A DNA stretch of 64,000 nucleotides from Polaribacter marinus. Its GTDB lineage: Bacteria; Bacteroidota; Bacteroidia; Flavobacteriales; Flavobacteriaceae. The notes below the pieces were generated by a model. The model did no database searches. It had not been told where the DNA came from and worked only from the letters and a program-made list of their open reading frames with translations. Of the stretch, positions 3,635 to 19,480 are shown piece after piece. The stretch spans positions 186,001-250,000 of the forward strand of contig NZ_JAKQYM010000003.1 of the NCBI RefSeq assembly GCF_022662535.1. The letters are read 5' to 3'. Within the stretch, counting starts at the first letter, position 1. Each line of letters opens with the position of its first letter. A program made the translations under genes and the position numbers.

Positions 3635-6076
3635 TTAAATTTTACCTATTCTAATTATATCTGCAAAGATACCAGAAGCTGTAACATCGGCTCCTGCCCC
3701 GGCTCCTTTTATAATTAAAGGATTTTCTGGGTATCTGTCTGTAAAGAATAAGACAATATTATCACTTCCTTCTAAGTCGTAAAAAGGATGGTTAGAAGGG
3801 ATGTGTTGCAAACCAACATTTGCTTTTCCGTCTGCAAATTCTGCAACATATTTTAAACGACAATTTTTACTGTTTGCATCTTTAAAAATTTGTTGAAAAT
3901 GCGCCTCGTTTTTTGTTAGTGATGTGTAAAAATCATCATTATTAGAGGTGTTTAAACTTTCTTTAGGAAGAAAAGCATTGTTAGAGATGTCGGTTAATTC
4001 TAAATCATAGCCACTTTCTCTTGCAAGAATTAAAATCTTTCTAGCAACATCTACTCCACTTAAATCAATTTTTGGGTCTGGTTCTGTATAGCCTTCTTTT
4101 TGAGCTTGCTCTACTACATCATGAAAAGTTGAGTTTTCATTAAAATTATTGAAAACAAAGTTTAAGCTTCCAGATAAAACAGCTTGAATTTTATGAATTC
4201 TATCTCCAGAATTGATTAAATTTTTTAAGGTATCTATAATCGGTAAACCTGCACCAACATTGGTTTCAAATAAAAATGGAGCATTGTATTTTCTAGAAAC
4301 TTCTTTTAAAGTTTTATAGTTATTTAATAAAGAGGCACAAGCAATCTTATTACAAGTTACTACCCCAATACTCTGTCTAAGGTAGTTTTCATATACTTCA
4401 GAAACCGATTGGTTTGCAGTATTATCTACAAATACACTATTTCTTAAATTACATTCTTTTGTTTTGTTAAAAAAGTTTTCTAAACTAGTTTCTTTTCCAT
4501 TGGTTAAATGTTCTTTCCAGTTTTTTAGATTGATGCCATTTTCATCAAAAATCATTTTTCTAGAATTAGAAAGACCAATAACCCTAATGTTTAATTTTAA
4601 ATTCTTTTTTAAGAATTTTTTCTGTTGTTCTAACTGCGCTAAAAATCGTTCTCCAACATTTCCAACACCTGTAACAAATAGGTTTAATTGTTTTATTTTT
4701 TCTTCAAAAAATTGTTCGTGTAAAGTGTTTAACGCTTTTTTTGCATCACTTTTATTAATAACAGCAGAAATATTTTTCTCTGTAGAACCTTGTGCTATAG
4801 CTCTAATATTTACGTTGTTTTTACCTAGAGAGCTAAACATTTGTCCGCTTAATCCTTGGTGATTTTTCATATTGTCTCCCACCAAAGCAATGATGCATAA
4901 ATCTTGTTCTAATGCAACAGGATTTACTTTTTGTTTTTGAATTTCGAACTCAAAAGTTTCATCAATAACTAATTTTGCTTTTTCGGCATCTTCATCTGAA
5001 ATACCAATACAAATTGACAATTCAGAAGAAGCTTGTGTTATTAAAATGATATTAATATTATGAAAAGAAAGTGCTTCAAACAATCGTTTTGAGAACCCTG
5101 GGATTCCTACCATTCCACTTCCTTCTAATGTAATTAATGTGATGTTTTCTATATGACTAATTCCTTTTACGGGTTTTTTATTGCTTGTTTCTTTGGTGAT
5201 ATAAGTTCCAACATCTTCAGGTTTAAAAGTATTTTTAATAACAATCGGAATTTCTTTTTTTAATACAGGTTGAATAGTTGGTGGATAAATTACTTTTGCA
5301 CCAAAATGAGACAATTCCATTGCTTCTTGATAAGAAATATGAGTAATAGGAAATGCTTGTTTTACAACACTTGGGTTTGCGGTAAACATTCCACTTACGT
5401 CCGTCCAAATTTGTAATTCATCTGCGTTTAAAGCTGCTGCAATAATAGCGGCGGTATAATCAGACCCCCCACGCCCTAAAGTTGTTGTTTTTCCTTTTGG
5501 AGTTCTAGCTACAAAGCCAGGTAAAAGTGTTACTTGTTTTTGATTTCCATCAAAAAAAGCAATTATATTTTTATTAGTTCCATCAAAATTAACGGTAGCA
5601 TTTAAGTAATTATCTGAAGCAACGATTAATTCTCTACTGTCTTTATAGTTAGTTTCAAAATAATTTTCTGAGGCTTTTGCAATAATGAAAGAAGATAAAA
5701 GTTCTCCAAAACTTGAAATCTTAGCCAACGTTTTGGGAGTTAGTTCTCTTAACAAAAAACAACCTTTATAAATGGTTTCTAGATTGTCAAAGAGTTGCTG
5801 AACATACTCAATAACATCTCCTTGTTTTTTTTCTGGAATTAATTCATTAATTATATCAAAATGATGTTCTTTTAACTTTTTTAATATTTTTTTATAGTCT
5901 TCGTTTTTGGTTGAAGCTAAATTTGCTCCCTCTATTAATGCATTTGTTGTTTTACCAAAAGCAGAGACTACCACGGCAATTTTTTGATTTTTTGAAGATT
6001 TTTCAACTATTTTTAAAACCTTTTGTATGTTTTCTGAACTGGCAACTGATGAACCACCAAACTTTAATACTTTCAT
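3635..6076 (-). CDS. thrA: bifunctional aspartokinase / homoserine dehydrogenase I
   Basis: Carries out the first and third steps of the aspartate pathway to threonine. Residues 1 to about 290 are the aspartokinase domain (KFGGSSV at 5-11), about 310-460 are ACT regulatory domains, and about 465-813 are the homoserine dehydrogenase with its NAD(P)-binding motif VTGVGNVGERFL. At 813 residues it matches E. coli ThrA in length and domain order. The ACT domains predict feedback control by threonine. First gene of the thr operon; a Thr/Ile-rich leader ORF lies upstream (6178-6240). Confidence 0.97.
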   Translation of the reverse strand: MKVLKFGGSSVASSENIQKVLKIVEKSSKNQKIAVVVSAFGKTTNALIEGANLASTKNEDYKKILKKLKEHHFDIINELIPEKKQGDVIEYVQQLFDNLETIYKGCFLLRELTPKTLAKISSFGELLSSFIIAKASENYFETNYKDSRELIVASDNYLNATVNFDGTNKNIIAFFDGNQKQVTLLPGFVARTPKGKTTTLGRGGSDYTAAIIAAALNADELQIWTDVSGMFTANPSVVKQAFPITHISYQEAMELSHFGAKVIYPPTIQPVLKKEIPIVIKNTFKPEDVGTYITKETSNKKPVKGISHIENITLITLEGSGMVGIPGFSKRLFEALSFHNINIILITQASSELSICIGISDEDAEKAKLVIDETFEFEIQKQKVNPVALEQDLCIIALVGDNMKNHQGLSGQMFSSLGKNNVNIRAIAQGSTEKNISAVINKSDAKKALNTLHEQFFEEKIKQLNLFVTGVGNVGERFLAQLEQQKKFLKKNLKLNIRVIGLSNSRKMIFDENGINLKNWKEHLTNGKETSLENFFNKTKECNLRNSVFVDNTANQSVSEVYENYLRQSIGVVTCNKIACASLLNNYKTLKEVSRKYNAPFLFETNVGAGLPIIDTLKNLINSGDRIHKIQAVLSGSLNFVFNNFNENSTFHDVVEQAQKEGYTEPDPKIDLSGVDVARKILILARESGYDLELTDISNNAFLPKESLNTSNNDDFYTSLTKNEAHFQQIFKDANSKNCRLKYVAEFADGKANVGLQHIPSNHPFYDLEGSDNIVLFFTDRYPENPLIIKGAGAGADVTASGIFADIIRIGKI

Positions 6077-6177: not shown

Positions 6178-6240
6178 CTAAAGGGTAATAATTGTAGAAG
6201 TGTGAATAATAGCCTCCGTAGAAACAGGAACTATAGTCAT
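6178..6240 (-). CDS. thrL: putative thr operon leader peptide
   Basis: A 20-codon ORF read leftward: MTIVPVSTEAIIHTSTIITL, then TAG. Five Thr and five Ile codons in 20 residues match the two end products that control E. coli thr attenuation. It begins about 38 bases after the predicted transcription start and lies 101 bases upstream of thrA. Downstream I see only an AU-rich 7-bp hairpin (6120-6139) and a short CCC/GGG hairpin at 6175-6185 overlapping the leader stop; neither is followed by a U run, so the termination step is unclear. The rest of the 6077-6392 gap is AT-rich and holds nothing else I can name. Function inferred from composition and position; chance remains possible. Confidence 0.6.
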   Translation of the reverse strand: MTIVPVSTEAIIHTSTIITL

Positions 6241-8052: not shown

Positions 8053-8060
8053 TACATTTG
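8053..8060 (+). promoter_or_regulatory. -7 element of the leu operon promoter
   Basis: TACATTTG fits TAnnTTTG and lies 31 bases before the leuA ATG. The TTG upstream is spaced only about 13 bases, shorter than ideal, so the -33 box is uncertain. Confidence 0.45.
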
Positions 8061-8091: not shown

Positions 8092-9267
8092 ATGCAAGAC
8101 AATAAGGTACAAATTTTTGATACTACGTTAAGAGATGGTGAGCAAGTTCCCGGCTGTAAGTTAGATACCAGTCAGAAACTAATAATTGCTGAAAGGTTAG
8201 ATTTATTGGGTGTAAATGTAATAGAAGCTGGTTTTCCTGTTTCTAGTCCGGGTGACTTTATTTCGGTTTCAGAAATTTCTAAAATTGTAAAAAATGCAAC
8301 GGTTTGTGGTTTAACAAGGGCTGTAAAAAATGATATTAAAGTGGCTGCAGAAGCATTAAAGTATGCTAAGTTCCCTAGAATTCATACAGGTATTGGAACA
8401 AGTGACTCTCATATAAAATTCAAATTCAATTCAACAAGAGATAAAGTAATAGAGCGTGCTATAGGTGCTGTTTCTTATGCAAAATCATTTGTAGAAGATG
8501 TGGAGTTTTACGCAGAAGATGCTGGTAGAACAGATAATGGGTTTTTGGCTAAAGTTTGTGAAGAAGTTATCAAAGCAGGAGCAACTGTTTTAAATATACC
8601 AGATACTACAGGGTATTGTTTGCCAGAAGAATATGGTGCAAAAATAAAGTATTTAAGAGAAAATGTAAAAGGAATAGAAAATGTAATTCTTTCTTGTCAT
8701 TGTCATAACGATTTAGGTATGGCTACAGCAAACTCAATTTCTGGTGTTGTTAATGGGGCTCGTCAAATAGAGTGTACCATAAACGGAATTGGAGAACGAG
8801 CAGGAAATACAGCCTTAGAAGAAGTTGTTATGATTTTAAAACAACATCCATATTTAAACTTAGAAACTTCTATCAACACAAAGTTGTTGTATGATACAAG
8901 TATTATGGTTCGTGAAAGCATGGGAATGCCAGTACAACCCAACAAAGCAATTGTTGGTGCAAATGCTTTTGCTCATAGTTCTGGAATTCATCAAGATGGA
9001 GTCATAAAAAACAGAGCTACTTATGAAATTATGGATCCTGAAGAAGTAGGTGTTACTGAGAGTGCAATTGTTTTAACAGCAAGAAGTGGAAGAGCAGCCT
9101 TGGCATATAGAGCTAAAAAAATTGGTTACGAATTAACAAAGGTACAATTAGATGCTGCTTATACATCTTTCTTAGAATTTGCAGATCAACAAAAAGAAAT
9201 TATAGATGAAGACATTCATAAGATAATGGATACAGTGAATAAAATTTCTAAAATAGCAATAGCCTAA
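8092..9267 (+). CDS. leuA: 2-isopropylmalate synthase, catalytic-only form
   Basis: Condenses acetyl-CoA with 2-oxoisovalerate, the first committed step of leucine synthesis. The DRE-TIM motif [10 protein letters not shown] (9-18), the metal-binding HCHNDLG and the GIGERAGN motif are all present, as is [11 protein letters not shown]. The protein has 391 residues, against about 520 for E. coli LeuA; it stops right after the linker helices and lacks the C-terminal allosteric domain that binds leucine. A homocitrate or citramalate synthase is less likely given the linked leuCDB. Its stop overlaps the leuC start (TAATG). Confidence 0.93.
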
Positions 9268-10649
9268 TGGGAAAAACATTATTTGATAAAGTTTGGGATG
9301 CTCATGTAGTTGATTCGATAGAAAACGGCCCACAGGTTTTATATATTGATAAGCATTTAATTCACGAAGTTACAAGTCCACAGGCTTTTAACGAATTAGA
9401 AAAGCGAAATATTCCTATTGCAAGACCCGATAAAATTGTTGCAACTGCAGATCATAATACTCCAACAATAAACCAACATTTACCAATTAAAGACGAGCTT
9501 TCTAGAAAGCAGCTAGAACAGTTGGCTAAAAATTGTAAAAAAAATAACATTCCATTATACGATTTAGGTCATAAAAACAACGGAATTGTACATGTGATTG
9601 CTCCAGAATTAGGAATCACTCAACCAGGAATGACTATGGTTTGCGGAGATTCACACACTTCAACTCACGGTGCATTTGGAACCATTGCGTTTGGAATTGG
9701 TACCAGTCAGGTTGCCCAAGTTTTTGCAAGTCAATGTTTGTTATTAGAAAAGCCAAAAAGTTTACGTGTTTCTGTAAATGGAAAACTTAAAAAAGGGGTT
9801 TTACCTAAAGATGTCATTTTATATATTATTGCAAAATTAGGTACCAATTCTGGAACGGGATATTTCTGTGAATATGCAGGAAATGTTTTTGAAGAAATGT
9901 CTATGGAAGGTAGAATGACCGTTTGTAATATGAGTATAGAAATGGGGGCTAGAGGAGGAATGATTGCACCTGATCAAATAACTTTTGATTATGTTATGGG
10001 CAGAGAGTTTGCTCCAAAAAACGAAGATTTTGAGAAAAAAGTTGCGTATTGGAAAACATTGCCTACAGATTCTGATGCTGTTTTTGATAAAGAATATTCT
10101 TTCGAAGCCTCAGATATAGAGCCAATGTTAACGTATGGAACAAACCCAGGGATGGGAATAAAAATAACGGAAAATATTCCAGACATTAAAGATGTTTCTT
10201 TTGAAAAATCATTGACTTATATGAATTTTAAGAAGGGTGAATCTTTAATTAATAAGCAAGTAAATTATGTCTTCATAGGTAGCTGTACAAATTCTAGAAT
10301 AGAAGATTTTAGAGTTGCAGCTACCTTTGTTAAAGGCAAACAAAAAGCAGCAAACGTAAACGCTTGGTTAGTGCCAGGTTCTCAAAGAGTAGCAAAACAA
10401 ATTGTAGAAGAAGGCTTACAAACAATTTTTGAAGAAGCTGGTTTTGTATTAAGGCAACCGGGTTGTTCTGCTTGTTTGGCGATGAATGATGATAAAATTC
10501 CAGAAGGAGAATACTGTGTTTCAACTTCGAATAGAAATTTTGAAGGCAGGCAAGGGCAGGGTTCTAGAACCATTTTAACAAGTCCGTTAGTGGCTGCAGC
10601 AACAGCAGTAGAAGGGAGAATAGTGGATATTACAAAATATTTAAATTAA
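9267..10649 (+). CDS. leuC: 3-isopropylmalate dehydratase large subunit
   Basis: Aconitase-family subunit that, with LeuD, isomerises 2- to 3-isopropylmalate. The cluster ligands are in GSCTNSR and [10 protein letters not shown], which give the three cysteines for a [4Fe-4S] cluster; [13 protein letters not shown] is the usual active-site signature. The length of 460 is standard. The start codon overlaps the leuA stop by one base and the stop overlaps the leuD start by one base, so translation is coupled along leuA-C-D. Confidence 0.97.
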
Positions 10650-11227
10650 TGGAAAAGTTTATAAAATTAACATCGAGAGCAGTTCCATTACCACCAGAAA
10701 ACATTGATACAGATCAAATCATTCCTGCACGTTTTTTAAAAGCAACTGATAAGTTAGGTTTTGGAGATAATGTCTTTAGGGATTGGAGGTTTAACAAAGA
10801 CGGAAGTGTAAATGAAAGTTTTGCTTTAAATAATAAAAATTACAGTGGTAGTATTTTAGTTGCTGGAGATAATTTTGGTTGTGGTTCTAGTAGAGAGCAT
10901 GCAGCTTGGGCTTTGGTTGGTTATGGGTTTAAAGTTATAGTAAGCAGTTTTTTTGCTGATATTTTTAAAGGGAATGCTTTAAATAACGGACTACTTCCTG
11001 TGCAAGTATCTCAAGAGTTTTTAAAGAAATTATTGACACATTTAGAAGAAAACCCAACATCAGAAGTTACAGTTAACTTAGAAACACAAACATTAGAAAC
11101 AAAAGTCGGTAATGCAAGTTTTGATATTGACCCATACAAAAAGACCTGTATGATTAATGGTTATGACGATATCGATTTTTTAATTAGTAAAAAAGATAAA
11201 ATTAACGCTTACGAAGCAACAATATAA
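10649..11227 (+). CDS. leuD: 3-isopropylmalate dehydratase small subunit
   Basis: Swivel-domain subunit of isopropylmalate isomerase. The protein has 192 residues, with the [13 protein letters not shown] segment near the N-terminus (19-31) and [13 protein letters not shown] (73-85), the substrate-recognition loop. It forms a heterodimer with LeuC. It is followed 6 bases later by leuB. Confidence 0.97.
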
Positions 11228-11233
11228 AGGTAT

Positions 11234-12355
11234 ATGAAATTTACAATCGCTGTAATTCCTGGAGATGGCATAGGTCCGGAAGTAACAAATCAAGCAAAAA
11301 AAGCATTAAATGCAGTTGCAGACACTTACAATCATGTTTTTTTATACAAAGAAGCTCAAATGGGTGCGTGCGCAATAGATGAAACAGGAAATCCTTTGCC
11401 AGAAGAAACGTTAAACATCTGTAAAAAGTCAGATGCTATTTTATTTGGAGCCATCGGAGACCCAAAATATGATAATAATCCAACAGCAACTGTAAGACCA
11501 GAGCAAGGTTTATTGCGTTTGCGTAAAGAATTGGGTTTGTATTGTAATGTTAGACCTGTTAAAGCATATGATCAGTTAATTGCAAATTCACCTTTGAAAG
11601 AAGAAATAATTAAAGGAACAGATATAGCTATCTTTAGAGAATTAACGGGTGGAATTTATTTCGGAATAAAAGAATTAAGTGATGACAAACAAGTCGCTTT
11701 TGATGGATGTTCATATTCTGTTGAAGAAATTTCTAGAATCACTCATTTGGCTTTTCAAGCAGCACAAAATAGAAGAAAAAAAGTAACTTTAGTGGATAAG
11801 GCAAATGTGTTAGAAACATCTCGTTTATGGAGAAAAACAGTTACAGAAATCGCAAAAAAATATAAAGATGTAAGTTTAGAGTTCTTATTTGTAGATAATG
11901 CTGCTATGCAAATGATTTTAAATCCTAAACAGTTTGATGTAATCTTAACTGAAAATCTTTTTGGAGATATTATTTCTGATGAAGCAAGTGTTATAGGTGG
12001 CTCTATAGGTTTGTTGGCATCTTCATCAATTGGTGATAAAAGTGCACTTTTTGAACCAATTCACGGTTCGTTTCCACAAGCTAAAGGTAAAGATGTTGCA
12101 AATCCATTAGCTTCAATTTTATCTGCAGCTATGTTGTTGGAGCATTTAGGTTTACATGAAGAAGCAGAAGCTATTGAAAGAGCAGTAGAAAAATCGTTAG
12201 TTTTAGGAATAACCACAGAAGATATTAAGAATAAGAGTAATTTTTCTGCAAGTACCTCTAAAGTAGGAGATTTTATTGCGGATTATATTTCTAATCAAGA
12301 AGATAGTAATCTTAATTTTATGAATATTCACGCAGGGCAAAGTACTATTATTTAG
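11234..12355 (+). CDS. leuB: 3-isopropylmalate dehydrogenase
   Basis: NAD-dependent oxidation and decarboxylation of 3-isopropylmalate to 2-oxoisocaproate. The 373 residues include IPGDGIGPEV at the N-terminus, the substrate arginines around RPEQGLLRLRKELGLYCNVRP, and the metal-binding ENLFGDIISDE segment. Last gene of the leu part of the array; 345 bases then separate it from ilvD, and that gap holds the leader peptide and attenuator. Confidence 0.97.
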   Translation: MKFTIAVIPGDGIGPEVTNQAKKALNAVADTYNHVFLYKEAQMGACAIDETGNPLPEETLNICKKSDAILFGAIGDPKYDNNPTATVRPEQGLLRLRKELGLYCNVRPVKAYDQLIANSPLKEEIIKGTDIAIFRELTGGIYFGIKELSDDKQVAFDGCSYSVEEISRITHLAFQAAQNRRKKVTLVDKANVLETSRLWRKTVTEIAKKYKDVSLEFLFVDNAAMQMILNPKQFDVILTENLFGDIISDEASVIGGSIGLLASSSIGDKSALFEPIHGSFPQAKGKDVANPLASILSAAMLLEHLGLHEEAEAIERAVEKSLVLGITTEDIKNKSNFSASTSKVGDFIADYISNQEDSNLNFMNIHAGQSTII

Positions 12356-12411
12356 AAACGTTTAATTAAATTAGGATTTCTAAATAAAAATTCTAAATAT
12401 TTGAAATGTAA

Positions 12412-12471
12412 ATGAACAAACAAATATTAAATATTATTTCTATTGTCATCATCGTAATTATTACGATTTGA
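12412..12471 (+). CDS. ilv leader peptide
   Basis: A 19-residue ORF, MNKQILNIISIVIIVIITI then TGA, with nine Ile, two Val and one Leu codon. A run of ten of the last twelve codons is Ile or Val. It sits between leuB and ilvD and is followed at once by antiterminator and terminator sequences, the standard layout of ribosome-mediated attenuation. A perfect 7-bp inverted repeat with a 3-base loop (ATCGTAA and TTACGAT, within 12451-12467) lies inside the ORF and could be the pause hairpin. I see no convincing separate promoter just upstream, so the leader may be read through from leuA-B. Confidence 0.85.
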   Translation: MNKQILNIISIVIIVIITI

Positions 12472-12472
12472 T

Positions 12473-12534
12473 AAGGAAGTGATATTTATATATTTTTTAA
12501 ATAGAACCTTCCTTTTTTGGGAGGTTTTTTTTTT
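12473..12534 (+). terminator. ilv attenuator: antiterminator plus intrinsic terminator
   Basis: Terminator: AACCTTCC (12505-12512) pairs with GGGAGGTT (12519-12526), 8 bp with one G-U pair, loop of six T, followed by eight T (12527-12534). Antiterminator: AAGGAAG (12473-12479), right after the leader stop, is the exact complement of CTTCCTT (12508-12514), so the two structures exclude each other. A ribosome stalled at the Ile/Val codons would favour read-through into ilvD. The 12535-12700 stretch between this and ilvD is AT-rich with nothing further that I recognise. Confidence 0.88.
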
Positions 12535-12700
12535 GATTTATTTCACTCATTGAGCATCATAATATAGTGTATTTAAATAGTTGTTAATCAGTTTTTTAAT
12601 ATTGTTTCTAAGGGGGTGAACTTAAAGAGTATGATTGTATAATATTTAATAAAAACAGTGAAACATAGTAATTTAGTCAACAAATTGAATAAAAGAGTAA

Positions 12701-14377
12701 ATGGAATTAAATAAACATAGCAAAAGATTAACACAAGACGAATCTCAACCTGCATCACAAGCAATGTTGTATGCAGTTGGTTTAACGGATGATGATATGC
12801 AAAAAGCCCAAGTTGGTATTGCAAGTACAGGTTATGATGGTAACCCCTGTAATATGCACTTAAACAATTTGGCAGCGGAAGTTAAAATTGAATCAAAAAT
12901 TGCTGGTTTAGTTGGGTTAGGGTTTAATACAATTGGGGTTTCAGATGGAATTTCTATGGGGACTTCGGGTATGAATTACTCATTAGCTTCAAGAGATATT
13001 ATTGCAGATTCTATAGAAACTGTTGTAAACGCTCAAAGTTATGATGCCTTAATTTCTGTGGTTGGTTGCGATAAAAACATGCCAGGAGCGGTAATTGCCA
13101 TGTTGCGTTTAAATCGCCCATCTATTATGATGTATGGAGGGTCAATTGCATCTGGAAATTATAAGGGTAGAAAGTTAAATATTGTTTCTGCTTTTGAAGC
13201 TTTAGGACAAAAAGTAGCAGGAGAAATAGAAGAAGAAGAATATAGGGAAATTATAAAAAGAGCCATTCCTGGAGCAGGTGCATGTGGTGGTATGTATACT
13301 GCAAACACAATGGCTTCTGCAATAGAATGTATGGGGTTTTCTTTACCTTATAATTCATCCATACCAGCAGAAAATCCAAATAAATTATCTGAAGCAGAAA
13401 GAACTGCTTTGGCTATTAAAAATTTATTAGAGTTAGATTTAAAGCCGTTAGATATTATTTCAAAAAAATCTATCGAAAATGCTATTGCAATTGTAAATGC
13501 TTTAGGAGGTTCTACCAATGCGGTATTACACTTTTTGGCAATTGCACATGCGGCTGATATAGAATTTACTCTAGAAGATTTTCAAAGAGTTTCTGATAGA
13601 ACTCCATTAATAGCAGATTTAAAACCATCTGGTAAATACTTAATGGAAGATGTTCATGGAATTGGAGGAACGCCTGCTGTAATGAAATATTTATTAGATA
13701 ATGGATATTTACATGGAGATTGTATGACAGTTACAGGTAAGACATTAGCAGAGAATTTAGCAGATGTAACAGCAATAGAATTTGATGAACAAGATGTAAT
13801 TCATCCAAAAGATAAAGCATTAAAATCTTCTGGAAATATTCAGATAATTTATGGAAACCTTGCAGAAGAAGGAGCGGTTGCAAAAATTTCTGGAAATGAA
13901 GGATTGTTGTTTGAAGGAAAAGCAGTGGTTTATGATGGTGAGCAAGCAGCAAATACAGGAATTTCTAATGGTGAAGTAGAAAGAGGAGATGTAGTCGTCA
14001 TTAGGTATGTCGGACCTAAAGGAGGACCTGGAATGCCAGAAATGTTAAAACCAACTTCTTTAATTATGGGAGCAGGTTTAGGAAAATCTGTAGCTTTAAT
14101 TACAGATGGTCGTTTTTCTGGAGGAACGCATGGTTTTGTGGTTGGACATATTACGCCAGAGGCACAATCTGGAGGCGCAATTGGTTTGATAGAAACTGGT
14201 GATAAAATTAGAATTAGTGCAGAAGATAACTCTATTAATGTTCTAATTTCTGAGGAAGAACTAGCAGAAAGAAAATCAAAATGGGTAGCTCCTGCTTTAA
14301 AGCATAAAAAAGGAATTTTATATAAATATGCTAAAACTGTAGCTTCAGCATCTAAAGGATGTGTTACAGATTTATAA
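12701..14377 (+). CDS. ilvD: dihydroxy-acid dehydratase
   Basis: Dehydrates dihydroxy acids to 2-oxo acids in isoleucine and valine synthesis. The 558 residues carry the iron-sulfur cysteines in [16 protein letters not shown] and [14 protein letters not shown], and the C-terminal [11 protein letters not shown] motif. Length and motifs are those of the IlvD/Edd family, and the neighbours exclude 6-phosphogluconate dehydratase. First gene after the attenuator; 77 bases before ilvB. Confidence 0.97.
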
Positions 14378-14454
14378 AAAAAATCAAGACAAAATAGATA
14401 AGAAAAAGACAAGAGAAAATAGTTCTCTATTCTTTAATCTAAACAAGAAATAAT

Positions 14455-16188
14455 ATGGAAACACAAACCATAAAAAACAAAGAAACTTCAACAAAAGTTA
14501 CAGAAAGAATCTCTGGAAGCGAGGCAATTGTTAGATGCTTAATTGAAGAAGATACTAAAATAATTTACGGATATCCTGGTGGAGCAATTATGCCAGTCTA
14601 TGACGAATTGTATAAGTATCAAGATAAAATTCATCATGTTTTAACACGTCATGAACAAGGTGCCACACATTCTGCACAAGGTTTTGCAAGAATTTCTGGT
14701 AAAGTAGGAGTGTGTATTGCAACTTCTGGTCCGGGTGCAACCAATTTAATTACAGGTATTGCAGATGCACAAATAGACTCTACACCAATGGTGTGTATCA
14801 CAGGGCAAGTTTTTTCTCATTTATTAGGAAGTGATGCGTTTCAAGAAACCGATATTGTTGGTATTTCAACTCCGGTTACAAAATGGAATTGTCAAGTCAC
14901 CAAAGCATCTGATATTCCAGAAGTATTGGCAAAAGCTTTTTATATTGCAAAAAGTGGGAGACCAGGACCTGTCTTAATCGATATTACTAAGGATGCTCAA
15001 ATGGAAATGTTCGATTTTTCATATGAAAAATGTACAAAAGTTAGAAGTTATATTCCTATTCCAAAAACAGCTGTTTCTTCTGTAGAAGCTGCTGCAAAAT
15101 TAATTAATGGGGCTAAAAAACCATTAGTAGTTTGGGGACAAGGAGTAATTTTAAGCGAAGCGGAAGAAGCGTTTAAAGCGGTAATTGAAAAAGCAGGAAT
15201 TCCATCTGCTTGGACAATCTTAGGTGCTTCTGCAATTCCTACTTCGCATCCTTTAAATGTTGGTATGGTGGGTATGCATGGTAATTATGCACCCAATGTT
15301 TTAACTAACGAATGTGATGTGTTAATTGCAATTGGTATGCGTTTCGACGATCGTGTTACTGGAAGTATAAATACGTATGCGAAACAAGCCAAAGTAATTC
15401 ATTTTGAAATTGATCCGGCAGAAATAGATAAAAATGTAAAAACAGATGTAGCAGTTTTAGGGGATGCAAAAGTCAGCTTAGAATTACTATTACCAATGTT
15501 AAATAAAAACACGCATCCAGAATGGCGTCAAAAATTTGCAGAGTTGTATGCTGTTGAGTATGAAAAAGTAATTAAAAATGATTTGTATCCAACGAAAGAA
15601 GGATTAACAATGGCTGAGGTTTTAAAAGAAATTAATATTCAAAGTAAGGGAAATGCAGCAATTGTAAGTGATGTTGGTCAGCATCAAATGATTGCTTGTA
15701 GATATGCAGAATTCAATCAAACAAAAAGTAATATTACTTCTGGTGGATTAGGAACAATGGGCTTTGGTTTACCAGCAGCAATTGGAGCTAAAATGGCAGC
15801 TCCAGATAGAGAAGTTGTTTCTATTTCTGGTGATGGAGGTTACCAAATGACCATTCAAGAATTAGGAACTATTTTTCAGCAAAAAGCAGCCGTAAAAGTT
15901 GTGGTTTTAAATAATGATTTTTTAGGAATGGTGCGTCAATGGCAACAATTATTTTTTGACAAACGTTATGCATCAACAGAAATGGTAAATCCAAATTTTG
16001 TAGCTATTGCAGAAGGATATTATATAAAAGCAAAGAAAGTAACTAAGCGAGAAGAACTAGCAGATGCAGTTGCAGAAATGATGGCAAGTAAAGAGGCTTA
16101 CTTTTTAGAGGTTTGTGTAGAAAAAGAAGGAAATGTGTTTCCTATGATTCCTACAGGAGCAAGTGTTTCAGACATAAGACTAGAATAA
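14455..16188 (+). CDS. ilvB: acetolactate synthase, large catalytic subunit
   Basis: ThDP- and FAD-dependent enzyme that makes 2-acetolactate or 2-aceto-2-hydroxybutyrate. The 577 residues include the catalytic glutamate in RHEQGATHSAQG, the FAD-binding middle domain, and the ThDP motif beginning GDGGYQMTIQELGT and ending LNN. It has a roughly 20-residue N-terminal lead before the conserved ISGSEAIV. The small subunit gene follows after one base, so the holoenzyme is encoded together. Confidence 0.97.
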   Translation: METQTIKNKETSTKVTERISGSEAIVRCLIEEDTKIIYGYPGGAIMPVYDELYKYQDKIHHVLTRHEQGATHSAQGFARISGKVGVCIATSGPGATNLITGIADAQIDSTPMVCITGQVFSHLLGSDAFQETDIVGISTPVTKWNCQVTKASDIPEVLAKAFYIAKSGRPGPVLIDITKDAQMEMFDFSYEKCTKVRSYIPIPKTAVSSVEAAAKLINGAKKPLVVWGQGVILSEAEEAFKAVIEKAGIPSAWTILGASAIPTSHPLNVGMVGMHGNYAPNVLTNECDVLIAIGMRFDDRVTGSINTYAKQAKVIHFEIDPAEIDKNVKTDVAVLGDAKVSLELLLPMLNKNTHPEWRQKFAELYAVEYEKVIKNDLYPTKEGLTMAEVLKEINIQSKGNAAIVSDVGQHQMIACRYAEFNQTKSNITSGGLGTMGFGLPAAIGAKMAAPDREVVSISGDGGYQMTIQELGTIFQQKAAVKVVVLNNDFLGMVRQWQQLFFDKRYASTEMVNPNFVAIAEGYYIKAKKVTKREELADAVAEMMASKEAYFLEVCVEKEGNVFPMIPTGASVSDIRLE

Positions 16189-16189
16189 G

Positions 16190-16720
16190 ATGAGTACAGA
16201 AAAACAATTATACACAGTATCTATTTATACAGAAAACAATATTGGATTGTTGAATCGAATTTCAGCAATTTTCCAAAGAAGACATATAAATATAGAGAGT
16301 TTAAACACTTCTCCATCAGAAATTGAAGGAGTTTCTAGGTTTACGGTTGTAGTGAAAATGACCGAAGAAAACATGAAGAAAATTATAGGTCAAATAGAAA
16401 AACAAATAGAGGTTATAAAGGCGTTTTATCATAATGATGAAGAAACGATTTATCAAGAATCTTGCATTTTTAAAATGAAATCAGATTTACTTTTTGATGA
16501 ACGTCAAATTCAGAATATTATTAAAGAAAGTAACGCAAGAATTGTTACCGTAAATAAAGATTTTTTTGTGATTGAAAAATCAGGAAAAAAAGAAGAAATA
16601 GAATTACTATACAGGGAGTTATCTGTATTTGGAATAATGCAATTTACTCGTTCTGGAAGAATATCCGTAACTAAAGAAGAAATGAAAATATCAACCTTGT
16701 TAGAAACATACAATAATTAA
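16190..16720 (+). CDS. ilvN: acetolactate synthase, small regulatory subunit
   Basis: ACT-domain subunit that stimulates IlvB and normally gives valine feedback inhibition. The 176 residues have an N-terminal ACT domain (YTVSIYTENNIGLLNRISAI, about 8-27, then HINIESLNTSPSE) and a C-terminal domain of the IlvN/IlvH type. Starts one base after ilvB; ilvC follows 10 bases later. Confidence 0.95.
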   Translation: MSTEKQLYTVSIYTENNIGLLNRISAIFQRRHINIESLNTSPSEIEGVSRFTVVVKMTEENMKKIIGQIEKQIEVIKAFYHNDEETIYQESCIFKMKSDLLFDERQIQNIIKESNARIVTVNKDFFVIEKSGKKEEIELLYRELSVFGIMQFTRSGRISVTKEEMKISTLLETYNN

Positions 16721-16730
16721 ATAAAAAGAA

Positions 16731-18209
16731 ATGTCAAATTATTTTAACACATTAACATTAAGAGAGAAATTAGAACAATTAGGAAAATGTCGCTTTATGA
16801 ATGCTTCTGAATTTGAAGATGGAGTAAACGCATTAAAAGGAAAGAAAATTGTTATTGTGGGCTGTGGAGCACAAGGTTTAAATCAAGGTTTAAACATGAG
16901 AGATTCTGGCTTAGATATTTCTTATACATTAAGGCAGGCAGCAATTGATCAAAAAAGAGAATCTTATGTAAATGCAACTTCGAACGGATTTACAGTTGGT
17001 ACTTATGATGAATTATTACCAACAGCAGATTTAGTGATTAACTTAACTCCAGACAAACAACACACAAAAGTTGTGGCTACAATAATGCCTTTAATGAAAA
17101 AAGGAGCAACATTATCGTATTCTCACGGATTTAATATTGTTGAGGAAGGAACTCAAATTCGTAAAGATTTAACGGTAATTATGGTAGCCCCAAAATGCCC
17201 GGGATCTGAAGTTAGAGAAGAATATAAAAGAGGATTTGGAGTGCCAACCTTAATTGCAGTTCATCCAGAGAATGACCCAGAAGGAAAAGGTTGGGCACAA
17301 GCAAAAGCATATGCAGTAGCCACAGGAGGACATAAGGCAGGGGTCTTAGAATCTTCTTTTGTTGCTGAGGTAAAATCTGATTTAATGGGGGAACAAACGA
17401 TTTTATGTGGTTTGTTACAAACAGGAGCAATTCTATCTTTCGATAAAATGGTAGAAGAAGGTGTTGAGCCAAGTTATGCTGCAAAATTAATTCAATTTGG
17501 TTGGGAAACAGTAACAGAAGCTTTAAAACATGGAGGAATTACTAATATGATGGATAGATTGTCCAATCCTGCAAAAATTGAAGCATTTAGAATTTCAGAA
17601 GAATTAAAAGACATAATGCGTCCGTTGTTTCAAAAACATATGGATGATATTATGACGGGGCATTTCTCAAAAACAATGATGGAAGACTGGGCAAATGATG
17701 ATAAAAATTTATTAACTTGGAGAGCAGCAACAGGTGATACTGCATTTGAAAAACAACAAATTACAGATCAGGAAATTTCTGAACAAGAATATTTTGATCA
17801 TGGAACTTTATTGGTTGCCTTTGTAAGATCGGGTGTAGAGTTAGCTTTTGAAGCAATGACAGATTCAGGAATTATTGCTGCTTCTGCATATTATGAATCT
17901 TTACATGAAACACCATTAATTGCCAATACAATTGCACGAAAAAAATTATATGAAATGAACCGTGTAATTTCTGATACGGCAGAATATGGTTGTTACTTAT
18001 TCGATCATGCTTGTAAGCCTTTGTTAGCAGATTTCATGAAATCGGTTTCAACGGATGTTATTGGTAAGAAATTTACGGATTCAAATGAAGTTGATAACCA
18101 AGAATTAATTAGAGTTAATAGTATTATTAGAAATCATCCTGTAGAAAAAGTTGGAGCAAAATTAAGAGCGTCTATGACTGCAATGAAAGTAATAAAAACC
18201 GAAGTATAA
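16731..18209 (+). CDS. ilvC: ketol-acid reductoisomerase (class II, long form)
   Basis: NADPH-dependent isomeroreductase acting on acetolactate. At 492 residues it is the long, E. coli-like class II enzyme with a duplicated knotted C-terminal domain rather than the about 330-residue class I form. The nucleotide-binding motif is [15 protein letters not shown] near residue 45. The spacing to ilvN is 10 bases and to ilvA 8 bases. Confidence 0.97.
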
Positions 18210-18217
18210 TTCCATTT

Positions 18218-19480
18218 ATGGAAACAGAAACCATATATTTTCCAAGTATAAAGAATATAAAAGCTGCATCTTTAAGATTAAAAGATGTAGCATCTGTAAC
18301 TCCTTTGACGCTAAATTTACAGAATTCAAAGAAATTTGATAGTAACATTTTGTTTAAAAGAGAAGATTTACAAGTTGTACGCTCTTATAAAATTAGAGGT
18401 GCGTATAATAAAATGTCTTCTTTAACTGAGGATGAGAAAGCAAACGGAATTGTTTGTGCAAGTGCAGGAAACCATGCGCAAGGTGTTGCATTGTCTTGTA
18501 AATTATTGCAAATAAAAGGAACCATTTACATGCCTTCTCCAACACCAAATCAAAAGATAGAGCAAGTAAAAATGTTTGGTGAAGAATTTATAAATATTGT
18601 TATTGAAGGTGATACTTTTGACGATGCTTATCATGCAGCAATTGTAGACTGTAAAGCAAAAGAGAAAACATTTATTCATCCTTTTAATGACGAAAAAGTG
18701 ATTGAAGGGCAAGCAACAGTTGGTCTGGAAATACTGAGTCAAACAGATAAAAAAATAGACTACGTTTTTGTGCCTGTTGGAGGTGGTGGTTTGTCTTCAG
18801 GCTTGTCATCAGTGTTTAAAGAGTTTTCACCAGAAACAAAAATAATTGGAGTAGAACCAGAAGGGGCACCCTCTATGTTAACATCCTTAAAAAATAAAAC
18901 AAATACAGCTTTAACTCATATAGATGCTTTTGTAGATGGAGCAGCTGTTAAAAAAGTGGGCGACTTAACTTTTGCAATTTGTCGGCAAAATTTACATGAT
19001 ATGATTACCGTACCAGAAGGAAAAATCTGTCAAACAATTTTAGATTTGTATAATAAAGATGCAATAGTGGTTGAGCCTGCCGGTGCTTTAAGTATTGCTG
19101 CATTAGATTTTTTTGCAGATGAAATAAAAGGGAAAAATGTAGTTTGCGTGATCAGTGGAAGTAATAATGATATTACAAGAACTGCAGAAATAAAAGAACG
19201 CGCTTTGTTATATGCAGATTTAAAGCATTATTTTATTATAAAATTTCCACAAAGAGCAGGTGCTTTAAAAGAATTTTTGGTCGATATTTTAGGGCCAAAT
19301 GATGATATTACCCATTTCGAATATACTAAGAAAACAAATAGAGAAAACGGTGCCGCTGTTGTAGGTCTAGAGTTAAAATCATCTAAAGATTTAGAACCAT
19401 TAATTCTTAAGATGAAAGAAAGAAATTTCTTTGGAGATTATTTAAACAATAAGCCAGATTTATTTCAGTTTTTGGTTTAG
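18218..19480 (+). CDS. ilvA: threonine dehydratase (biosynthetic)
   Basis: PLP enzyme that deaminates threonine to 2-oxobutyrate, the first step toward isoleucine. The 420 residues comprise a catalytic domain with SYKIRGAYNKM (PLP lysine) and the PVGGGGLSSG loop, plus one C-terminal ACT-like domain (about 335-420) for isoleucine control. E. coli IlvA is longer (about 514) with two such domains, so this is the shorter, one-domain form. Last gene of the operon; a terminator follows. Confidence 0.95.
   Translation: METETIYFPSIKNIKAASLRLKDVASVTPLTLNLQNSKKFDSNILFKREDLQVVRSYKIRGAYNKMSSLTEDEKANGIVCASAGNHAQGVALSCKLLQIKGTIYMPSPTPNQKIEQVKMFGEEFINIVIEGDTFDDAYHAAIVDCKAKEKTFIHPFNDEKVIEGQATVGLEILSQTDKKIDYVFVPVGGGGLSSGLSSVFKEFSPETKIIGVEPEGAPSMLTSLKNKTNTALTHIDAFVDGAAVKKVGDLTFAICRQNLHDMITVPEGKICQTILDLYNKDAIVVEPAGALSIAALDFFADEIKGKNVVCVISGSNNDITRTAEIKERALLYADLKHYFIIKFPQRAGALKEFLVDILGPNDDITHFEYTKKTNRENGAAVVGLELKSSKDLEPLILKMKERNFFGDYLNNKPDLFQFLV

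Follow-up and report, generated by a model that had tools for sequence, protein, structure and literature searches.

Leader attenuators are known in enterobacteria for the branched-chain operons ilvGMEDA and ilvBN. Attenuation of the E. coli ilv genes is also named in PMC10272879, and for Corynebacterium, where the element before ilvBNC is known as an attenuator or as the ilvB-II uORF motif, control by the uORF was tested by mutation (PMC10272879, PMC11857589). Concerning the Bacteroidota, leader-peptide attenuation has been proposed upstream of amino-acid operons of Flavobacterium psychrophilum, with pheA and hisG among those named, and flavobacterial mRNAs are described as being without Shine-Dalgarno sequences (PMC9723704). 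In Bacteroides thetaiotaomicron, sORFs located in long 5' UTRs were called reminiscent of leader peptides (PMC7366714); the main text of neither of these two papers contains the term ilv. An element preceding ilvD, the Veillonella ilvD motif, shows a possible terminator in some of its members and was presented as a weak riboswitch candidate (PMC8632094). No description of an ilv attenuator from the Bacteroidota was found in the literature searched, most subscription papers being outside its scope. A comparative survey by Lopatovskaya et al. from 2010 may cover this phylum. The initial annotation of the locus presented here had called such an attenuator little described in Bacteroidetes, which is a fair statement: the main texts mentioned above hold general statements for F. 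psychrophilum and B. thetaiotaomicron only, and no ilv leader.

The locus studied belongs to Polaribacter marinus and lies in a window of 64,000 nucleotides, which is the whole stretch of DNA analysed; coordinates refer to it and, unless otherwise stated, to its forward strand. The genes leuA, leuC, leuD and leuB (8092-12355) are followed by ilvD, ilvB, ilvN, ilvC and ilvA (12701-19480), which would be the regulated genes. Coordinates and NCBIfam identities bear out the placement first proposed for the attenuator, in the 345-nt gap between the end of leuB at 12355 and the start of ilvD at 12701. The best named matches of the window ilvD are two Polaribacter (93 and 92%) and an uncultured Flaviramulus, also at 93%. 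The leader ORF MNKQILNIISIVIIVIITI (12412-12471, 19 codons, read from the sequence and by comparison) begins 56 nt after the leuB stop codon, an interval without terminator, and runs from the ATG at 12412-12414 to a TGA at 12469-12471, the next in-frame codon being TAA. Its peptide contains nine Ile, two Val and one Leu among 19 residues, with neither a Phe codon nor a Leu run. One base separates the stop codon from AAGGAAG (12473-12479), the 5' side of the antiterminator, from here on segment 2, whose exact complement CTTCCTT (12508-12514), or segment 3, overlaps the 5' arm and loop of an intrinsic terminator (12505-12534, defined by sequence, detector and folding). The terminator arms, AACCTTCC (12505-12512) and GGGAGGTT (12519-12526), form 8 bp, one of them G-U, around a 6-nt loop, and are followed by eight T that reach 12534. 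In addition, folding suggests a 1:2 hairpin (12422-12495), for which pair counts are mixed, between the Ile/Val codons and the bases 3' of the stop, holding the segment 2 bases. The whole element measures 125 nt, and the sequence agrees base for base with the leader, the perfect antiterminator and the 8-bp terminator plus eight T as they were initially annotated.

With high probability, the leader region 12412-12534 is a ribosome-mediated transcription attenuator of ilvDBNCA, probably served by its own promoter. RNA polymerase would start at the probable leader promoter, perhaps also reading on from leuB, and make the leader RNA. With charged Ile- and Val-tRNA, the ribosome would reach the stop codon at 12469-12471 and mask segment 2 or, alternatively, depart and let the 1:2 hairpin sequester it; with segment 2 unavailable, the terminator stem (12505-12526) would form and transcription would end before ilvD. 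Under scarcity of Ile (or Val), the ribosome would stall in the Ile/Val run and open the 1:2 hairpin, the freed segment 2 would pair with segment 3, no terminator would form and ilvDBNCA would be transcribed. Since only one Leu codon is present in the leader, leucine shortage alone should act little.

Such elements were searched for with a strict detector. It requires an ORF of 12-36 codons that starts with ATG and in which Ile and Val make up at least 38% and number at least six, plus a terminator that begins between -12 and +60 nt from the ORF stop. In 244 kb, made up of the window and a further 180 kb of its contig and read on both strands, this site is its single match, and among ilvD upstream regions it matches 48 of 130, window included, versus none of 650 dinucleotide shuffles; the 48 matches split into 29 of the 50 loci with ilvD of at least 78% identity and 19 of the 80 below. 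For the RNA 12408-12534 the folding energy is -38.3 kcal/mol, compared to -15.9 +/- 2.9 for shuffled copies (z -7.7, 0/200 shuffles), and for the terminator alone it is -13.2 kcal/mol, with 0 of 200 shuffles as low. The antiterminator stretch of the window taken alone does not surpass its shuffled copies in folding (z -0.86, 34/200 shuffles) and is weaker than the terminator, which counts against a simple thermodynamic reading but is allowed by a kinetic switch. The search of the organism's own genome for copies of the terminator yielded one other match (C22, L207), which has long ORFs on both sides and was not accepted as an attenuator.

Three samples of relatives were compared. For the genus, 58 genomes were searched, 55 of which have an ilvD match, and the upstream DNA of 50 was read (G004, G027, G031, G044 and G055 were left out); most leuB-linked congeners show the peptide, typically MKKQILNIISIIIVIVIITT, and the terminator AACCTTCC...GGAAGGTT about 205 nt before ilvD. 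The family sample takes one genome per genus: 22 of the 90 searched have no ilvD match at all, 68 have one, and 66, including the window, are testable, L153 and L204 having too little upstream DNA. The strict detector passes 27 of the 66 and fails 39, a count of carriers that may be low, since nine failing genomes (L149, L150, L152, L154, L155, L159, L172, L173, L194) still show a terminator of the CCTTCC or the CCTGTATC type. The third sample consists of 80 GTDB loci picked by ilvD similarity, where a relaxed detector matches 27, L003 among them; of 591 shuffles, taken from all loci together, it matches none. The relaxed matches at L003 and L106, a TTG-started MQIILPIKKIAI, were judged false; the relaxed totals still include them.

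The gene order recurs as well, leuB being upstream of ilvD in 32 of the 50 genus loci and in 16 of the 80 GTDB loci, the latter including Flavobacterium and two Saprospiraceae (L060, L080); most of these, not all, have the attenuator. Among the 66 family genomes, only the window and L206, itself without an attenuator, had leuB detected beside ilvD; none of the 26 other carriers did. Hence the placement is not specific to this genome, and the attenuator is independent of it. In the comparison with relatives, which the initial annotation had proposed as an alignment of the leuB-ilvD gap among flavobacteria, leader and terminator recur. The 31 aligned attenuators retain the stem and T run, their conserved columns fall mainly within the ORF, segment 2 and the terminator, and the Ile/Val codons show synonymous third-base changes; of the residues that follow Met in the leaders of 79 attenuators, a set selected for Ile+Val content, 35% are Ile and 14% Val. 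Nine loci show two Ile/Val attenuators in series before ilvD (L009, L018, L031, L110, L118, L119, L121, L160, L179). Seven of these tandems combine an upstream terminator of CCTTCC or GCTTCC type with a downstream CCTGTATC, and L018 and L031 have other terminator arms.

Concerning the pairing of the helices, RNAalifold on the 31-row alignment gives only -1.24 kcal/mol with two of five pairs compensated, partly because the terminator arm is off by one base in several rows of the MAFFT output, so the pairing was tested instead by segment swaps between loci. This permutation test drew on 74 of 197 loci, which gave 79 distinct attenuators; segment 2 was sought only from 12 nt upstream to 22 nt downstream of where the stop codon ends. 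The antiterminator duplex of own pairs averages -10.3 kcal/mol versus -7.6 +/- 0.24 for permuted pairs (0/10,000 as low), and when each distinct terminator arm is represented by a single locus (34 loci) the values are -10.1 and -7.05 +/- 0.39 (0/10,000). Unlike terminators come with matching segments, as in GATACAG/CTGTATC of L118 and L119 (in each, the second attenuator) or GGAATGG/CCATTCC of L018; in L077 and L079 the segment 2 match is poor. The antiterminator thus covaries among these loci and changes together with the terminator, in line with the complete Ile/Val attenuator that had been annotated. Counted from the first base that follows the stop codon, and within the limited search stretch, pairing of segment 2 begins at a median of -2, so that a ribosome at the stop would cover segment 2. 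As for the hairpin at the leader end that includes the control codons, no more than 5 in 100 codon-shuffled copies match its folding in 48 of the 79 attenuators, and in the window it extends to 12422-12495 and includes segment 2. Pairing in the putative 1:2 hairpin occupies 76.5% of cells compared to 41.9-53.4% in slid controls, with 3'-letter shuffles equalling the observed pairing 47 times and the covariation score 99 times out of 500.

With these results at hand, explanations other than attenuation by a translated leader can be weighed. The element sits behind leuB and AT-rich DNA favours Ile codons, which would suit a plain leuB terminator next to a chance Ile/Val-rich ORF, but the detectors pass none of the shuffled upstream regions (0/650 and 0/591), there is no second site in 244 kb, a like leader precedes ilvD where leuB is absent and the antiterminator covaries, which leaves this reading next to no probability. 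Only a very slight chance is given to the idea that the ORF is incidental to an element sensing a ligand or protein, such as a riboswitch, a T-box or the site of an RNA-binding protein: the combination of a terminator and alternative hairpins is common to such elements, but Rfam finds no regulatory or leader family in the window at gathering score, its five window matches at E<=10 are all below that score, and the conserved columns mentioned above lie mostly in the ORF, terminator and segment 2, the latter set at the stop codon. The chance-ORF, riboswitch and T-box readings are rejected on this evidence of detector shuffles, covariation, Rfam and conserved columns. It is also improbable that control is translational or Rho-dependent, with a terminator too weak in vivo; the conserved 5' side of ilvD would fit such control, against which stand the 8-bp stem with eight T at -13.2 kcal/mol (0/200 shuffles) and the retention of both stem and T run in the 31 aligned attenuators.

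The spacer between terminator and ilvD (12535-12700) is kept in close relatives, with TTGAGCATCAT 3' of the terminator and GAAACATAGTAATTTAGTCAACAAATTGAA before ilvD. The pattern TTGA..TCAT, located just 3' of the terminator, is matched no farther than 330 nt from ilvD by 39 of the 63 close loci, compared to 5 matches in a control stretch farther up and to 14 of 132 more distant loci, and GAAACATAGTAATTTAGTCAACAAATTGAA is nearly kept in L094, a locus that lost its attenuator. On the other side, several genus loci (e.g. L082-L086 and L089-L091) have longer gaps between leuB and leader that share AAGCTATTTCCAGCT and TCAATCTGGGCTAAAC, stretches that look like an intergenic repeat. In L005, L040 and L023 a 418-aa ORF and the ilv attenuator point away from each other; we take this ORF to be metK, recognised from its start in L005 and L040.

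The promoter question bears on how the attenuator is fed. The box TAnnTTTG, located at -12 to -5 in F. psychrophilum (PMC9723704), is the usual -7 box of the present genome, with 37 of 103 genes having it within 100 nt in coding direction versus 10 in reverse. A canonical box of this type, TACATTTG (8053-8060), ends 31 nt before leuA and likely marks the leu promoter. The initial annotation saw no clear promoter for the attenuator itself, and indeed no exact TAnnTTTG is found between leuB and leader in the window; what that statement missed is a conserved, non-canonical pair of -33 and -7-like elements before the leader. The candidate -33 element is TTAGG (12371-12375), replaced by TTTGG or TTG in many relatives, and lies about 20 nt upstream of the candidate -7 element AATATTTG (12396-12403), where the first T is missing. 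From their position, transcription is predicted to start near 12408, giving a 5' UTR of about 4 nt. Over 55 leaders, the ATATTTG core occurs within 30 nt of the leader in 27, versus 35 of 5500 shuffles, and in 22 it is accompanied by a suitably spaced TTG-like element, versus 9 of 5500. The distance from box to ATG is 4-12 nt in the 27 box-bearing leaders, which, if the promoter is right, would mean a 5' UTR of 0-8 nt and nearly leaderless transcripts. The box precedes five leaders whose upstream gene is divergent, where transcription must start in between; L005, L023, L040 and L110 have no TAnnTTTG within 160 nt, and L119 has one. Four other divergent loci do not have the ATATTTG box: L021, L026 and L028 show neither box within 160 nt and L037 has TATCTTTG. 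In five Flavobacterium leu-ilv loci the leader is preceded, at 26-29 nt, by a canonical TACTTTTG. Judging from these patterns, it is likely that the leader has its own promoter.

The main alternative for the setting is the one initially annotated, in which the attenuator acts as a pure valve: a single leu-ilv transcript would start at the leuA promoter, with no promoter in the leuB-ilvD gap, and would be passed on to the ilv genes only when Ile or Val is short. The canonical TACATTTG box before leuA fits this reading, as do the short leuB-leader interval, just 56 nt with no terminator between, and the single Leu codon of the leader. It also draws on AATATTTG, since the corresponding variant VATATTTG, without the first T of TAnnTTTG, is hardly enriched before the genes of this genome (4 forward versus 2 reverse of 103, against 37 versus 10), and on L021, L026 and L028, whose leaders stand behind a divergent gene with neither box. 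Against it, the box, in many cases preceded at about 20 nt by TTG or TTTGG, persists despite differing upstream distances and genes, and four loci (L005, L023, L040, L110) have it behind a divergent gene where TAnnTTTG is absent within 160 nt. The canonical TACTTTTG of the five Flavobacterium loci and the rarity of leuB beside ilvD, limited among 66 family genomes to the window and the attenuator-free L206, point the same way, and a valve without a promoter of its own is accordingly considered unlikely. The conserved box weakens the valve as sole role; what stands is that leu read-through would also meet the terminator, and gating it may be a second function if read-through occurs. Location within a leu-ilv array alone does not imply a new type of internal valve.

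The attenuator is not retained everywhere. Thirty-five leuB-ilvD loci with ilvD of at least 85% identity were compared, of which L002 and L113 are ambiguous and were set aside; by manual reading, seven of the 35 lack the attenuator (L003, L094, L097, L099, L106, L108, L112). In six of these seven, ilvD is preceded by a TAnnTTTG box at a distance of 30-32 nt, L094 being without either. At the position of this proximal box nearly all carriers have TAATTTAG or a similar sequence, and only one of 26 (L107) has TAnnTTTG. Without correction for kinship, the curated table thus gives 1/26 carriers versus 6/7 lacking loci (4e-5), and the automatic one 2/25 carriers versus 5/10 non-carriers (Fisher 0.012), the curation having moved L003 and L106 to the lacking and L083, L092 and L107 to the carrying loci after their rows were read. 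L003 and L106 have identical ilvD proteins. On the ilvD tree, whose bootstrap is not settled, the seven losses need four changes, at least three of which are forced by well-supported branches, and the six boxed lacking loci spread over three of the four lineages. Hence attenuator and proximal canonical promoter would tend to replace each other, in few independent events. The 39 of 66 strict failures, the 22 of 90 genomes without ilvD and the 7 of 35 leuB-ilvD loci without attenuator indicate that the attenuator is dispensable.

A broader proposal, tentative and somewhat doubtful as it stands, is that promoter, near-leaderless leader and attenuator form a single regulatory cassette that stands before flavobacterial ilvD regardless of the upstream gene, in tandem in some species, and that has repeatedly been swapped for a canonical promoter; in the window it would gate its own transcripts as well as leu read-through. 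If true, the leu and ilv genes of one array would answer to different signals.

A separate observation concerns a Thr/Ile-rich leader, MTIVPVSTEAIIHTSTIITL, on the minus strand of the window (about 6178-6240), ahead of a gene at 3635-6076 that we take to be thrA. ACCCTTT(A)GGGGT/ACCCTTTAAGGGT is kept before thrA in 24 genus loci (25 genomes searched), where the leader stop codon, TAG in 22 and TAA in 2, sits in the loop of a small hairpin and a Thr/Ile-rich ATG ORF passes the filter in 13; no U-rich terminator was found behind the leader in these 24 loci. Of 60 family genomes, counting the organism's own, 5 contain the core pattern and 3 match a reversed control, so that it is near chance outside the genus.

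Regarding the known systems, the enterobacterial ilvGMEDA and ilvBN leaders share with the window a leader peptide with many branched-chain residues, a set of alternative hairpins and a terminator before ilv genes. The window leader differs from them in having no Leu run, in its phylum and in its predicted 5' UTR of about 4 nt, the likeness considered here being one of anatomy. The same holds for Corynebacterium ilvBNC, which, as reported, also combines a leader of branched-chain codons with terminator, antiterminator and anti-antiterminator, but stands before ilvB instead of ilvD, uses Leu and Val as control codons and belongs to another phylum. The Veillonella ilvD motif likewise precedes ilvD, but it is classed as a riboswitch candidate and also comes from another phylum. 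The terminator half of Phe_leader (Rfam RF01859) aligns with the window at 21.7 bits (E 0.24), far below the gathering score of 55, and the window leader has no Phe codon.

From nearer relatives come the F. psychrophilum elements, which share with the window the bacterial family, the proposed mechanism and the absence of an Rfam match (PMC9723704), and, in the same phylum, the sORFs of B. thetaiotaomicron, where the example given is a hypothetical-protein gene (PMC7366714). The present locus documents the classic branched-chain leader-peptide switch in the Bacteroidota, with a comparative test of its antiterminator, and the nine loci with tandem attenuators and the repeated exchange with a promoter add to its interest. 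The 125-nt element, together with congeners that have no attenuator and with the tandem versions, offers an easy bench system for flavobacterial transcription-translation coupling. Overall, it is a well-formed and conserved example of an already known attenuator type, in a family where leader-peptide attenuation had earlier been proposed for one flavobacterium (PMC9723704).
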